From Algibacter amylolyticus (GTDB lineage: Bacteria > Bacteroidota > Bacteroidia > Flavobacteriales > Flavobacteriaceae): a stretch of 64,000 nucleotides of DNA. This document shows, one piece after another, positions 1 through 31,743 of this stretch (the stretch's first letter is position 1; each line of letters starts with the position of its first letter). The notes beneath the pieces were generated by a model, which worked only from the letters and a program-made list of their open reading frames with translations, did not search any database and was not told where the DNA came from. A program made the translations under genes and the position numbers. The DNA is taken from contig NZ_JACHGE010000004.1 in assembly GCF_014202225.1 (NCBI RefSeq), positions 1 to 64,000 of the forward strand, in the 5' to 3' direction.

Positions 1-55
1 AATATGTTTATGAACTTGTTTCTCTTTTGTTAACTCGTTTCCTTGTTAGCGGGTG

Positions 56-86
56 CAAATATAAAACCCTTTTTTAACTCTCACAA
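56..86 (-). promoter_or_regulatory. Leftward promoter, unit 1
   Basis: On the minus strand TTG (84-86) is followed after 20 nt by TATATTTG (56-63), an exact match to the Bacteroidota consensus TTG-N19/20-TAnnTTTG. A GC-rich CACCCGC discriminator follows, as is common at rRNA promoters. This is the copy closest to the left edge and the best match of the three. Confidence 0.75.
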
Positions 87-191
87 TAGTTTTTTGATTT
101 ATTTTAAAAAATCTTTTAACTTCCTAAAATAATATCCAAACCTTTATATGAGCGTTTTGCTATCTGCGGTAATTACCGTTTTTAGCGGCTG

Positions 192-223
192 CAAATCTAC
201 AACCTTTTTATTAACTCTTACAA
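192..223 (-). promoter_or_regulatory. Leftward promoter, unit 2
   Basis: Minus strand TTG (221-223), 21 nt spacer, TAGATTTG (192-199), then CAGCCGC. It lies 136 bp upstream of unit 1 in the same direction. Confidence 0.7.
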
Positions 224-328
224 GTGATTTTGATATTTTTTTTGAAAAGTTTTTTCAACCTCTTAAAATTATCAATCAACCTTTTTATGAACGTTCCATT
301 AAATACTTATTGCGTTTTTAACGGGGTG

Positions 329-358
329 CAAACTTACTATCCTTTTTTATTTTGACAA
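329..358 (-). promoter_or_regulatory. Leftward promoter, unit 3
   Basis: Minus strand TTG (356-358), 19 nt spacer, TAAGTTTG (329-336), then CACCCCG. It is the outermost of the three tandem promoters. Confidence 0.7.
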
Positions 359-590
359 TGACTTTTTTTATCTTTTTTTTTAATTTTTTATCACCAACCT
401 TTTAACAGGCTTATTTGATGGAGTTTACATCATGAAAAAAATCACTTTATAAAAAAATCCTAACCTGATTTAATGAAATATTAGTTGCTTGATTGCTTAC
501 AAGCGCATTGTATATAACTATGAATAATAAAACTGATACCCATATAGGATGACCTATTTACTTACAGCTATTGTATATGCTTGTTGATAG
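359..590. other. Non-coding stretch between promoter array and repeat
   Basis: No open reading frame with a plausible start lies here. Two small inverted repeats are visible: GCTTG/CAAGC at 487-504 and ATAGG/CCTAT at 545-558. Neither is followed by a T run, so I do not call them terminators. Nothing else is recognised. Confidence 0.5.
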
Positions 591-681
591 ACCCGCGTTA
601 GGGATTGCAATGGAAAGCCCACAGCCCGACGAAGGAGGTGCGAGGACTTGTAATGTAAAGCCCGACCCTTGGGTAACGCCC
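591..681 (+). repeat. Dispersed structured repeat, copy 1
   Basis: This is a roughly 90 bp GC-richer island in AT-rich surroundings. In order it shows GCGTTA at the left end, the internal direct repeats TTGCAATGGAAAGCCC (605-620) and TTGTAATGTAAAGCCC (649-664), the small palindrome ACCCTTGGGT, and TAACGC at the right end that pairs with GCGTTA. Related copies lie at 19634-19722 and 31414-31544. Read on the minus strand it begins (GGGCGTTACCC) 9 nt after the stop codon of the Porin_10 gene, so it forms that gene's 3' untranslated region. No transposase or ORF is associated. Confidence 0.85.
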
Positions 682-19328: not shown

Positions 19329-19487
19329 TTAACTCTTAGGATTATTTACTATAACTAATGCTGCAATTACTCCGGGCACCCAGCCACAAAGCCATAATAA
19401 AAAGACGATAATAATAGAGCCGCAACCTTTATCGATAACGGCTAAAGGCGGGCAAATAATAGACAGTAATACTCTCCAGAAACTCAT
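19329..19487 (-). CDS. YqaE/Pmp3-family small membrane protein
   Basis: A 52-residue protein of two membrane helices: MSFWRVLLSIICPPLAVID, then KGCGSIIIVFLLWLCGWVPG, ending VNNPKS. The CPPLAV, the Gly-Cys loop and the CGWVPGVIAA turn are the hallmarks of the Pmp3/YqaE (UPF0057) family, linked in other organisms to membrane potential and salt stress. It is alone on the minus strand between lipB and lysS. It can be recognised despite its size because almost every residue follows the family pattern. Confidence 0.92.
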   Translation of the reverse strand: MSFWRVLLSIICPPLAVIDKGCGSIIIVFLLWLCGWVPGVIAALVIVNNPKS

Positions 19488-19633
19488 GTTTGATTTAATT
19501 TAATTGATGATTTACCTATTGGACGATAAAGTTACGTGTTTGTTACACTTTATGTAGCAAATACTACTTATTTTAAAATCCTTATAAATACACTAAGATA
19601 CTGCAGAACAATTACTGTAAATGGCAGACTAAC

Positions 19634-19722
19634 TCGCGCTAGGGATAGTAGCGGATAGCCCACAGCCTGACGAAGGAAGTGCGAGGACTTGTAGCGGATA
19701 GCCCGACCCTTGGGTAGCGCCC
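19634..19722 (+). repeat. Dispersed structured repeat, copy 2
   Basis: Same layout as copy 1, but the closing stem is GCGCTA/TAGCGC instead of GCGTTA/TAACGC, a compensatory change on both sides. Both internal direct repeats read GTAGCGGATAGCCC, so they changed together. The ACCCTTGGGT palindrome is unchanged. This copy lies between two divergent genes, 84 bp before the lysS start, so unlike copies 1 and 3 it does not abut a stop codon. Confidence 0.85.
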
Positions 19723-19806: not shown

Positions 19807-21501
19807 ATGTCACAATTATCTGAGCAAGAACTTGTAAGAAGAGAGAAATTAGCAAAATTACGCGATTTGGGTATTAATCCTTATCCGGCAGATTTATATC
19901 CTGTTAAGGACACATCGAAATCCATAAAAACCAATTTTAAGGAGGAAAACAAGGTGATTATTGCTGGTAGATTAATGTCTAGACGTATACAGGGTAATGC
20001 AAGTTTTGCTGAGTTACAGGATGCCGATGGCCGCATACAAGTGTATTTTAATAGAGATGAAATTTGTACTGGCGACGATAAAAGCAAGTACAACGATGTG
20101 TATAAAAAATTACTAGATATTGGTGATTTTATTGGTGTTGAAGGCGAATTGTTTTTAACCAAGGTAGGAGAAAAAACGGTAAAAGTTAAAAACTTCACTT
20201 TGCTTAGTAAGGCTTTAAAACCTTTACCATTACCTAGAACCGATGCCGATGGAAAAGTGCATGATGCTTTTACCGACCCAGAGCAGCGATACAGACAACG
20301 TTATGCCGATTTGGTGGTAAACCCACAGGTTAAAGAGGTGTTTGTTAAGCGTACAAAATTGTTTAATGCTATGCGCCAGTTTTTTAATGATTCTGGTTAT
20401 TTCGAGGTTGAAACTCCTGTTTTACAGCCTATTCCTGGTGGTGCTGCGGCGCGTCCGTTTATTACACACCACAATGCTTTGGATATTCCGTTGTATATGC
20501 GAATTGCAAACGAATTGTATCTTAAAAGGCTAATTGTTGGTGGTTTTGATGGGGTTTATGAGTTTTCTAAAAACTTTAGAAACGAGGGTATGGACAGAAC
20601 CCACAACCCTGAGTTTACAGCCATGGAAATTTATGTTGCTTACAAGGATTATAACTGGATGATGGATTTCTGTGAGCGTTTATTAGAACATTGTGCTATT
20701 GCTGTTAACGGCAGTACTAAAGCAACTTTTGGCGAGCATGAAATAGATTTTAAAGCGCCTTATGCTAGAGTAACCATGGCAGATTCTATTAAGCATTTTA
20801 CTGGTTTTGATATTACAGATAAATCTGAAGATGAAATAAGACAAGCAGCAAAAGACCTAGGTATTGAAGTTGATGCCACCATGGGTAAAGGCAAACTTAT
20901 TGATGAAATTTTTGGTGAAAAATGTGAGGGCAACTACATACAACCTACCTACATTACAGATTACCCAAAAGAAATGAGCCCACTGTGTAAAGAACACCGT
21001 GATAACCCTGAATTAACAGAGCGTTTTGAGCTTATGGTTTGTGGTAAAGAAATAGCAAATGCATATTCTGAACTTAACGACCCAATAGACCAACGTGAGC
21101 GTTTTGAACACCAACTTAAATTGGCTGCTAAAGGTGATGATGAAGCTACCGAGTTTATTGATCATGACTTTTTACGTGCCTTAGAGTATGGTATGCCTCC
21201 TACATCTGGTATGGGTATTGGCATGGACCGTTTAATTATGTTTTTAACCAACAACCAATCCATACAGGAAGTGTTGTTTTTCCCGCAAATGCGCCCAGAG
21301 AAAAAACCTTTAGCTATTAGTGATGATGCTAAAGCTGTTTTAGACATTTTAAAGAAAGCTGAAAAACTAGACCTTGTGGCTTTAAAAGGTCAGTCTGGTT
21401 TATCGAATAAAAAATGGGATAAAACAATTAAAGAATTAACTAAAAACAACCTTGCTAAAGTTGAGAAAACGGATGATGGGTTGTTTGTTAGTGTGGTATA
21501 A
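19807..21501 (+). CDS. lysS: Lysyl-tRNA synthetase, class II
   Basis: 564 residues. An N-terminal OB-fold anticodon-binding domain (about 50-150, with GRLMSRRIQGNASFAEL) precedes the class II core, with motif 2 FRNEGMDRTHNPEFT and motif 3 GMGIGMDRLIMFLT. After the usual end of the enzyme there is an extra tail of about 65 residues (from about 500), rich in Lys and helical, which I believe is common in Bacteroidota LysS. It attaches lysine to tRNA-Lys. It is monocistronic with its own promoter box and a perfect terminator. Confidence 0.97.
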   Translation: MSQLSEQELVRREKLAKLRDLGINPYPADLYPVKDTSKSIKTNFKEENKVIIAGRLMSRRIQGNASFAELQDADGRIQVYFNRDEICTGDDKSKYNDVYKKLLDIGDFIGVEGELFLTKVGEKTVKVKNFTLLSKALKPLPLPRTDADGKVHDAFTDPEQRYRQRYADLVVNPQVKEVFVKRTKLFNAMRQFFNDSGYFEVETPVLQPIPGGAAARPFITHHNALDIPLYMRIANELYLKRLIVGGFDGVYEFSKNFRNEGMDRTHNPEFTAMEIYVAYKDYNWMMDFCERLLEHCAIAVNGSTKATFGEHEIDFKAPYARVTMADSIKHFTGFDITDKSEDEIRQAAKDLGIEVDATMGKGKLIDEIFGEKCEGNYIQPTYITDYPKEMSPLCKEHRDNPELTERFELMVCGKEIANAYSELNDPIDQRERFEHQLKLAAKGDDEATEFIDHDFLRALEYGMPPTSGMGIGMDRLIMFLTNNQSIQEVLFFPQMRPEKKPLAISDDAKAVLDILKKAEKLDLVALKGQSGLSNKKWDKTIKELTKNNLAKVEKTDDGLFVSVV

Positions 21502-30191: not shown

Positions 30192-31409
30192 ATGCTAAAA
30201 AAAAGTATATTCATTTTACTCGGTTTATGTAGCTTCATGCTTACGGCACAAGCACAAGATAGTTTATCCTTTAAAAACGGAATTGACAACCCAAGTATAT
30301 TATCTACCCACCACTTTGGTATATTTAGCTCGCGTATAAATACTAATTTTAAATACGCACCGCCAGAAAAAACTACATTAGCCATAAACTATACATCCGG
30401 AAACACGTTTCACCCGTTTGTAGAAGCACATTACCCTAAAGACCCCGTAGTAAGAGAAAAACTAAGTGAAGTAATCTGGTACAGCCGTAGGTTTGAATTT
30501 TTAGATCAAGAGCTAACACCAGCCGATTATCTAAACATTGTTATAGATGCCGTAATTAAAGAATTTCGGCTAACAGCAAACATACCTATAAATAAGCAGC
30601 ATGAACTAGAGGTAACACTACGGTCCTATTTAATTACCAATGGAAAATACCCATTTTCCTTGTTTACTAGCGACGAAAGTATAGAATGGTTTCACAGTAA
30701 TGTAGCAGGTGGCGAAGATCCTTTTGGACGACGCTATTACGGATTAAACCAAGTAAACTTTAACTATTTAGACCGAAACGGCAACACATTACAACTCAAC
30801 AATAACGATTTTTTTACTGGCGGCTTAGAACTAACACATTATTATTACCCAAAATTAGCCATAAACAAAACCAGAAACATCTATCTTAATTTTGGCACAC
30901 ACTTAGGCTGGAACACATCAAAATACAATGCCTCCTTGGACACTGGTATTTCGGCAAACTTTATAAAAAAACTGGCATTAAAAAATAATTACGAGCTTAA
31001 CTTCGCAGTAGGCGTAAACACCTTAGCAAAAAACATTGTAAACTTTAAAGAGGTTATCGACCTAGGAAACAGCCCTTTCCTAGCCACCTTCGAAAGCGAA
31101 ATAGAACTAACCAAATACACAAAAAAGGGCAATTTTAACGCCTTTGGTATTAATTACCACGCCCAATCGGCATATAACAAACAAGACGAAAGCAATTATT
31201 ATAGACTTATTGGCAAATGGCGCGAAATAGAAGGCGGATGGCAAAATGGCGTATACACACTATACGAGCCACTAATAAGCTGGAATTTTATTTACACCTA
31301 CGGCACACCAAAATATAAAGTATCACTCTTTGTAAAAGAAGACTTAAGAGTAAACAACGCACCAGATTTTCAAACAGGCATAAGTTTAAAAGTACCAATC
31401 GCTAAATAA
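30192..31409 (+). CDS. Outer-membrane beta-barrel-like protein
   Basis: 405 residues with a signal peptide ending LTAQAQ (about 21). The mature part alternates polar and aromatic residues as in outer-membrane strands (NFNYLDRNGNTLQL, NIYLNFGTHLGW, WNFIYTYGTPKYKVSLFVK) and ends with DFQTGISLKVPIAK. No named family is recognised. It may be co-transcribed with the helical-repeat gene. Repeat copy 3 begins 4 nt after the stop codon. Confidence 0.7.
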   Translation: MLKKSIFILLGLCSFMLTAQAQDSLSFKNGIDNPSILSTHHFGIFSSRINTNFKYAPPEKTTLAINYTSGNTFHPFVEAHYPKDPVVREKLSEVIWYSRRFEFLDQELTPADYLNIVIDAVIKEFRLTANIPINKQHELEVTLRSYLITNGKYPFSLFTSDESIEWFHSNVAGGEDPFGRRYYGLNQVNFNYLDRNGNTLQLNNNDFFTGGLELTHYYYPKLAINKTRNIYLNFGTHLGWNTSKYNASLDTGISANFIKKLALKNNYELNFAVGVNTLAKNIVNFKEVIDLGNSPFLATFESEIELTKYTKKGNFNAFGINYHAQSAYNKQDESNYYRLIGKWREIEGGWQNGVYTLYEPLISWNFIYTYGTPKYKVSLFVKEDLRVNNAPDFQTGISLKVPIAK

Positions 31410-31413
31410 TTTT

Positions 31414-31544
31414 GGGCGTTACTTTTTACTCATACCTACAAGGTTTCCAAAACCTTGCAGGATCATAAAAAGTCGGGCTTTCCATTACAAGTCCTCGCTC
31501 CCAAAAGGTCGCTGTGGGCTTTCCATTGCAATCCCTAACGCGGG
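31414..31544 (-). repeat. Dispersed structured repeat, copy 3, with enlarged arm
   Basis: On the minus strand it starts GCGTTAGGG (31533-31541), has both internal repeats (TTGCAATGGAAAGCCC and TTGTAATGGAAAGCCC), and closes with TAACGC at 31415-31420. The ACCCTTGGGT palindrome of copies 1 and 2 is replaced by a long hairpin: outer ACTTTTTA/TAAAAAGT (8 bp), inner CCTgCAAGGTTT/AAACCTTGtAGG (12 bp, one mismatch). The middle segment also differs (CCTTTTGGGAGC). It begins 4 nt after the stop codon of the barrel-protein gene. Confidence 0.85.
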
Positions 31545-31743
31545 CAAGTCCGCTACAGCCACTATCCTATTTTAAGTTACCACATATCCGCAAACAGACC
31601 AACTTAAATCGTCCATAACCAAAGGCATTTTAAATTCCAAACACACCGTAAAACTGTTAATATGTAGTTAAAAACAATACTCCCATTAAACCCTTTTAAT
31701 TTTAGGAAGTCCAAAAGACAAATAAATTTAAAAACAATAAAAA

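Follow-up and report, generated by a model that had tools for sequence, protein, structure and literature searches.

Flavo-1-like hairpin repeats of Algibacter stay at old sites and keep their outer frames while their inner modules are sometimes replaced

The genome of Algibacter amylolyticus contains about a hundred or more copies of a dispersed hairpin repeat of ~85–150 nt. The resident copies are old and vertically inherited, as related species share many of them at corresponding loci. Also, the inner module of a copy is sometimes replaced by a module of another type while the locus-specific 5' frame around it stays. At a probability of about 0.5, the best reading of these observations is that the hairpin repeats are inherited vertically and that their cores are exchanged by ectopic gene conversion. 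The copies that we started from lie in a window of 64,000 nucleotides (the first 64,000 positions of contig NZ_JACHGE010000004.1).

There are three copies in the window (Table 1). A first-pass annotation had described them as repeats with one plan, and reading the sequences bore this out, with the correction that copy 3 is on the opposite strand. Copy 3 is longer because a palindrome sits in its right-hand hairpin; this palindrome is present in some other copies too. Separately, the left end of the window (1–475) resembles the end of contig C9 (16–475, 91%) and contig C15 (1–95, 100%), a repeated region near contig ends.

Table 1. Coordinates of the repeats, their neighbours, and the loci that differ from the sister species. 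Positions without a prefix are in the window; G000 is the A. amylolyticus genome and G121 is its sister.
Feature	Location	Strand	Description
Copy 1	595..679	+	type B element; frame GCGTTA..TAACGC
Copy 1 closing stem	595-600 / 674-679		GCGTTA / TAACGC
Copy 1 inner helix, first strand	607..620	+	GCAATGGAAAGCCC; first "direct repeat"
Copy 1 inner helix, second strand	650..663	+	GTAATGTAAAGCCC; second "direct repeat"
Copy 1 Flavo-1 match	585-671	plus	33.2 bits
Porin_10 gene	691-2694	minus	stop codon 11 nt from 3' end of copy 1
Copy 2	19636..19720	+	type B; compensated frame GCGCTA..TAGCGC with GGGATAG/TAGCCC
Copy 2 closing stem	19636-19641 / 19715-19720		GCGCTA / TAGCGC
Copy 2 Flavo-1 match	19627-19712	plus	29.0 bits
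52-aa ORF	19329-19487	minus	flanks copy 2; divergent
Lysyl-tRNA-synthetase-like gene ("lysS")	19807-21501	plus	flanks copy 2
Copy 3	31416..31541	-	type B, inverted
Copy 3 closing stem	31536-31541 / 31416-31421		
Palindrome CCTACAAGGTTTCC/AAAACCTTGCAGG	31435..31461	.	nested, right-hand hairpin of copy 3
Copy 3 Flavo-1 match	31467-31550	minus	36.9 bits, E 3.4e-4
ORF	30192-31409		end 6 nt from 3' end of copy 3
Methylase ORF with Y1_Tnp	L032:6304-10194 = G000 C2 ~314303-318193	minus	Y1_Tnp (HUH) at residues 639-708
Element flanking methylase ORF	C2:313405-313508	minus	~0.8 kb from ORF
Element flanking methylase ORF	C2:318337-318484	plus	~0.15 kb from ORF
Different module in G121	C4:165748, C2:341752, C2:294860, C4:19627, C7:114541		C4:19627 is copy 2 of the window
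Different loop in G121	C1:83045		5' frame unchanged
Truncated or remodelled	C7:110424, C4:227633, C1:25754		
Absent in G121	C4:194670		

The Rfam model for Flavo-1 (RF01705, which Rfam lists as an sRNA of unknown function) matches all three window copies, each below the gathering cut-off of 42 bits. The consensus inner helix of Flavo-1 is present in the window's subtype, with covariation. The window copies are a variant of Flavo-1, one subtype of its superfamily. The first-pass annotation had mentioned similar sequences in other Flavobacteriia, and the described motif that they resemble is Flavo-1 (PMC2864571).

Instead of three copies, as first thought, the genome has at least 98. Across its 25 contigs, we found at least 97 Flavo-1 matches at E ≤ 1, of which 41 were over the cut-off. 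Two of the window copies are among the 97 listed and copy 1 is not; because of this, and because 150 of 1,053 candidates were scored, the total is a lower bound. Among 14 control genomes, 5 had matches at E ≤ 1 and none had a match over the cut-off. At the stricter limits of our family and genus searches, the control genomes had no Flavo-1 match. These searches found Flavo-1 in 77 of 120 genomes from the family and in all ten genomes from the genus (including A. amylolyticus itself).

Placed side by side, the copies that we read have one outer frame in common (GCGTTA-GGGATWG ... WAGCCCGACC-hairpin-GGTAACGCC) and vary in the inner module. A few of the copies over the cut-off carry a different outer part (TTTAGCCC..). 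The arrangement in which one of several inner modules sits within an outer frame is new here. The module labels are our own: A (GGCATCCTTTTTTTGCTGCC..), A' (which ends as A does and has a loop of ~70 nt), B (the window's module, AAAGCCCACAG..GCGAGGACTTG), C/D (TGTTTGA or TTGTTGA..), and E (AAATCCTTTTTG..). We found 114 frames in 1,315,202 bases of G000, mostly stretches picked around known matches, and 50 frames in 1,196,249 bases of G121, in blocks of four match-bearing contigs. Type B was the commonest (53 frames in G000 and 23 in G121), and 7 frames in each genome were untypable.

The long loops of A' modules, such as the one at the lysS site of G121, are highly variable, and by eye, several of them have in common a motif like ATTTAACAGATT. 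A small palindrome, CCTGCCTGCCGGCAGGCAGG, is nested in several elements of both genomes (for instance, C1:267465 and its counterpart in G121): 8 of the 15 copies found were inside frames, as compared to 0.16 expected. At some loci it is present in G121 and absent from G000, so it seems to have been active recently.

To describe the fold, we aligned 34 type B copies of G000, which are paralogues from a single genome, and assessed them against a 23-pair structure drawn from the Rfam consensus and from these same sequences. Overall, 96.9% of the cells in this alignment pair, as compared to 26.5–44.3% for controls with slid partners. Changes on both sides were seen at 9 of the 23 pairs, and there were 61 double-change cells versus 17.9 in shuffled data (none of 500 shuffles reached 61). 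Three pairs were never broken: 5-121, 12-79 (T-A in 23 copies and A-T in 11), and 4-122 (T-A in 20 and C-G in 14). The last of these shows that the two-sided change in the closing stem, which the first-pass annotation had noticed in the window, is real and not due to chance. Stem positions that vary independently of each other were not what the further copies showed.

The fold is made by one strand of the element and consists of a closing stem, a GGG/CCC + WW/WW helix, and an inner helix in which 3x3 G/A-rich loops lie between short paired steps. What the first-pass annotation called "two internal direct repeats" are really the antiparallel strands of this inner helix. The dinucleotides at their middles vary together (GC/GC, GT/AC, AA/TT, AC/GT, or TT/AA, with the two dinucleotide pairs unpaired in 2 and 6 of the 34 copies), so the repeats are strands of a single helix whose 3x3 loops are similar. 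Minimum-energy folding gave nothing unusual for copy 1 (z = -0.42) or copy 2 (z = +0.24), and did not recover the covarying fold in either. Copy 3 is stable by energy folding (z = -3.07), most likely due to its nested palindrome.

Wobble pairs suggest folding of the plus strand, whether as RNA or as single-stranded DNA. Across 164 frames of all types, G.T cells outnumbered A.C cells by 55 to 8. Frame detection made no use of the two dinucleotide pairs, and there we counted 31 G.T cells versus 1 A.C, along with 22 G.A; for these counts, the register of the dinucleotide pairs in types C/D was assumed. A looser, earlier scan for frames showed no such asymmetry (37 versus 36 among 184 candidates, many of which had unpaired ends).

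The elements could be structured RNAs that are transcribed from the plus strand and act in cis or in trans, with each copy kept for its RNA. Folding on one strand with G.U-type tolerance, the pairing that is kept at resident sites (see below), and the sRNA type in Rfam would all fit, and a table row in PMC2864571 rates Flavo-1 as a probable RNA that is not cis-regulatory. However, the orientation of the elements to their neighbouring genes is unbiased, by eye we saw no conserved promoter upstream, and the lysS copy lies between lysS and a divergent ORF, where read-through from either gene would not obviously cover it. Also, in the transcriptome of Flavobacterium psychrophilum, the relevant passage of PMC9723704 places the Flavo-1 matches indistinctly in sense or antisense to transcribed regions, with many of them outside such regions. 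(Another study, PMC9029176, merely lists Flavo-1 in the portion available.) We consider it unlikely that the elements are structured RNAs of this kind.

As for placement, crude ORF calls put 33 of the 98 copies in G000 in convergent regions, 23 in tandem regions in the same orientation as the genes, 28 in tandem regions in the opposite orientation, and 11 in divergent regions, with 3 undetermined; 4 copies overlap long ORFs. In G121, 48 of 50 elements are between ORFs and 1 is within an ORF. Relative to the number of regions, G121 has 33 elements in 448 tandem regions, 8 in 87 convergent regions, and 7 in 111 divergent regions, so the signals from the class of region are mixed (33 convergent versus 11 divergent copies in G000, and 8/87 versus 7/111 in G121). 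There is no orientation bias relative to the genes in tandem regions (same versus opposite, 23/28 in G000 and 15/18 in G121), and the G-rich strand shows no preference for either replication strand (27 of 50 in G121 and 45 of 98 in G000). Because there is no clear orientation to the neighbouring genes or to replication, our first choice for a function in the cell would be a structural role in intergenic DNA, by analogy to BIME/REP elements.

We followed the three sites of the window across the ten genomes of the genus. The site upstream of lysS (copy 2) is occupied in nine of ten, with G123 as the exception. Its module is B in G000, G126, G122, and G125, A' in G121, G044, G127, and G124, and of another form in G120. 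The site of copy 1 is occupied in eight of the nine genus genomes in which it was retrieved (all except G044), with A' in G127 and B in the rest. The site of copy 3 has an element or a remnant in all nine genomes in which it was retrieved. Type B is there in G000, G121, and G126, and also in G120, where an insertion has broken it; G127 has a B-like module, G125 has C, G123 has E, G122 has A', and G044 has a C-like remnant.

Outside of the genus, we considered the best 30 lysS loci among the 120 family genomes, of which 28 are from other genera. The lysS site is occupied in 7 of these 28 best-matching genomes, with different modules: six by a match to the Rfam model (G049, G036, G051, G072, G006, and G084) and one by eye (G070, whose element has nearly no module). 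G110 has a possible remnant. With a strict test for the frame, 2 of 80 named lysS loci were positive, from an uncultured Algibacter sp. and from Tamlana sargassicola. The sequence read at the Algibacter locus is identical to that of G044, and this by itself puts the genus of the window near Algibacter.

At site 1, the mean pairwise identity among the seven species with type B is 0.78 for the element and 0.518 for its upstream flank, as compared to 0.495 for shuffled sequences and 0.808 for the adjacent coding DNA. The signature GACTTGGA is found at this site in five of the seven (not in G000 or G123), and it is lacking from all 76 type B copies in the DNA of G000 and G121 that we examined (which does not include site 1 of G121). 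A compensated variant, AGG/CCT, is present at site 1 in both G127, which has A', and G124, which has B. This pattern of conservation, together with AGG/CCT, fits vertical descent with selection for pairing. The first-pass annotation's view that these are folded elements and not decayed insertions is supported, both by the covariation across 34 copies and by an orthologous site that is conserved while its upstream flank is randomised.

We then compared the copies in G000 to the sister species. For 39 of the 98 copies, the examined part of G121 contained one or both flanks, and for 35 it contained both in order. By reading the sequences at these 35 loci, we found that the module was kept at 25, was different at 5, differed in its loop at 1, was remodelled or truncated at 3, and was absent at 1 (Table 1). 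At the six loci with a changed module or loop, the 5' frame is identical in the two species. The kept frames include rare ones: GCATTA (7 of 164 frames), GCGCTA with GGGATAG (6 of 164), and AGGATA (4 of 164). If frames were drawn at random, the probability of this agreement would be 6.5e-6, a value that rests on three of the six loci; the other three carry the commonest frame and give little information. At two of these loci (C2:341752 and C7:114541), the species differ in the 3' arm of the frame. The kept 5' frames imply that the frame was inherited and that the core was replaced.

Where might the new cores come from? Leaving aside the modules of C2:294860 and C1:83045, six of the eight modules at these loci have other copies that are 93–98% alike. 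For the A' module that G121 carries upstream of lysS, there is no second copy in the DNA examined, and the best match elsewhere for the G000 module of C2:341752 is only 82% alike over 50 nt. No exchange with an identical donor was found. We also found no clean empty site that would show the boundaries of the element: the only empty site, C4:194670, is not clean. Of the terminal inverted repeats and target-site duplications that characterise MITEs, a 6-bp closing stem is all that we saw.

If cores are exchanged by ectopic gene conversion, then each replacement would be a non-reciprocal exchange with another dispersed copy, by gene conversion or by template switching. The exchange would probably start when the hairpin breaks or when it stalls replication. 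Cleavage of the hairpins by SbcCD-like nucleases may come before the ectopic gene conversion. The arms of the frame may supply the short homology for the exchange, and pairing would be under selection at resident sites.

Instead, a hypothetical enzyme, such as a dedicated recombinase or a single-strand integrase, might swap modules inside the resident frames, as in a cassette system. The exchanges are bounded by the frame arms and involve discrete types of modules, a second small palindrome is enriched in frames (CCTGCCTGCCGGCAGGCAGG, above), and type B occurs on plasmids of Bacteroidales, in some cases beside a recombinase gene. On the other hand, we found no candidate for the enzyme (Y1_Tnp is the only domain that we searched for), ordinary gene conversion requires no new enzyme, and the sites of exchange are located more coarsely than to a single base. 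We think that such an enzyme is quite unlikely. A resemblance to the attC sites of integrons was dropped by eye, as the GTTA/TAAC ends face the opposite way.

The elements might also be REPIN-like, that is, non-autonomous mobile elements that are moved in trans by a RAYT or IS200-type (Y1) transposase. Many dispersed intergenic copies, with hairpins that fold on one strand, would be expected of such elements. The first-pass annotation had suggested looking for a RAYT, and the genome does contain a Y1_Tnp domain. However, it lies within a 1296-aa ORF that resembles Eco57I/MmeI restriction-methylases, and it is the sole one found: G000 has no free-standing Y1_Tnp gene at E ≤ 0.01. (In this ORF, the Y1_Tnp domain is followed by a KGNYKGNYKGNYK repeat. 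Y1_Tnp is also found in ORFs of 1074–1287 aa in G121, G122, G124, and G127; the methylase domains were checked in the G000 ORF only.) In both G000 and G121, the methylase ORF is flanked by oppositely oriented elements, and just 0.35% of random 3.9-kb intervals of G121 have elements within 1 kb on both sides, although this is a post hoc comparison. No element was seen in the flanks (~0.1–1.7 kb) of the Y1-bearing ORFs of 1074–1274 aa in G124, G127, and G122.

Across the family, Flavo-1 is commoner in genomes with Y1_Tnp (36 of 44) than in those without it (41 of 76), as raw counts that are uncorrected for genome size and descent. Also, the available text of PMC6006769 describes a subclass of RAYTs from Bacteroidetes (2.6) whose flanks bear "atypical secondary structures" that recur elsewhere in the genome. 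Against this, Y1_Tnp is missing at E ≤ 0.01 from two genomes of the ten in the genus, which nonetheless have 84 (G120) and 35 (G123) Flavo-1 matches, and family genomes such as G017, G049, and G071 are rich in Flavo-1 (18, 29, and 36 matches) without Y1_Tnp at E ≤ 1e-4. Nor did any of 30 Y1_Tnp loci match R1, our covariance model for type B, or any of 15 match Flavo-1 (both with flanks of ~1.5 kb). The RAYT lead is weak: the domain is inside a methylase ORF, it is lacking from two of the genus genomes, and the Y1_Tnp loci examined lack matches to the models. The flanking elements and the co-occurrence still speak for it. Because of the flanked methylase gene and the co-occurrence counts, we slightly raised our estimate for transposition by a RAYT, which is still quite unlikely, and lowered our probability for vertical inheritance with gene conversion of the cores from 0.55 to 0.50.

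As the first-pass annotation had proposed, we searched related genomes with a covariance model, and we found copies well beyond A. amylolyticus. In a search with strict filters and no control genomes, R1 matched 49 of 296 genomes from the phylum at E ≤ 1e-3. These 49 comprise 24 from the family (including A. amylolyticus), 5 from the rest of the order, 14 from the rest of the class, and 6 from the rest of the phylum.

Type B is also found on plasmids. Copy 1 as the query had hits in 61 of 72,556 plasmid records, and one of the plasmid copies as the query had hits in 82. All of the plasmids are from Bacteroides, Phocaeicola, Parabacteroides, or Butyricimonas. The six plasmid loci that we read score 45–82 bits with R1, and three of them score 25–33 bits with the Rfam model. 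In pBF9343, the element is at the end of a recombinase gene and beside an ArdC-like gene. More broadly, the elements on these Bacteroidales plasmids (L359–L364) are near genes for ArdC-like proteins, JAB-domain proteins, and recombinases, which recalls the leading region of conjugative plasmids. We found no match of type A to plasmids, no phage record that matched copy 1, and nothing relevant in the literature on pBF9343 with repeats or hairpins.

The plasmid copies of type B in Bacteroidales suggest that plasmids could carry the element from one order to another. More speculatively, there could be a system across the phylum in which resident frames are fixed at their sites for the lifetime of a genus or longer and hold exchangeable hairpin cassettes. 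The cassette would then be rewritten within its frame by a dedicated process, which conjugative plasmids might share. We doubt this, and consider it to be about as improbable as transposition by a RAYT.

Ever since its listing in 2010, Flavo-1 has been considered a probable RNA of unknown function. The fixed sites, kept frames, and swapped cores make it a testable problem in the evolution of repeats: how does a core come to be replaced while its site stays fixed, which of the strands folds, and why is the pairing kept? Across genera, the site upstream of lysS exists in occupied, swapped, and unoccupied forms, which makes it a natural allelic series. In the literature on Flavo-1 and RF01705, which we covered mostly outside of subscription journals, we found no account of module exchange or of plasmid copies.

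Finally, we compare these elements to known families. Like Flavo-1, they have the inner helix GGGAUUG..GGAAAGCCCGA, in which the steps are short and the loops are symmetric, they are found in Bacteroidota, and they have many copies; also, copies with the same frame and other modules score over the cut-off. Unlike curated Flavo-1, the window copies score below the cut-off and type B has another apical module. Also, matches to the 76-position Rfam model leave the outer closing stem unpaired and end before the end of the 3' hairpin. REP, REPIN, and BIME elements, as described in the available parts of PMC3733652 and PMC6006769, are likewise short intergenic hairpins with many copies and are associated with RAYT; here, in contrast, no free-standing RAYT gene was found, the fold is larger and modular, and modules are exchanged within the frame. 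The BOX elements of Streptococcus pneumoniae are modular as well, with end modules around a variable middle, and in the text available from PMC3049150, they insert into one another, with about half of the insertions being core. Paired end modules around a variable middle appear to work alike in BOX and in these repeats, but BOX, as that text describes it, varies in the number of boxB modules, whereas here the type of module is replaced within a kept frame.
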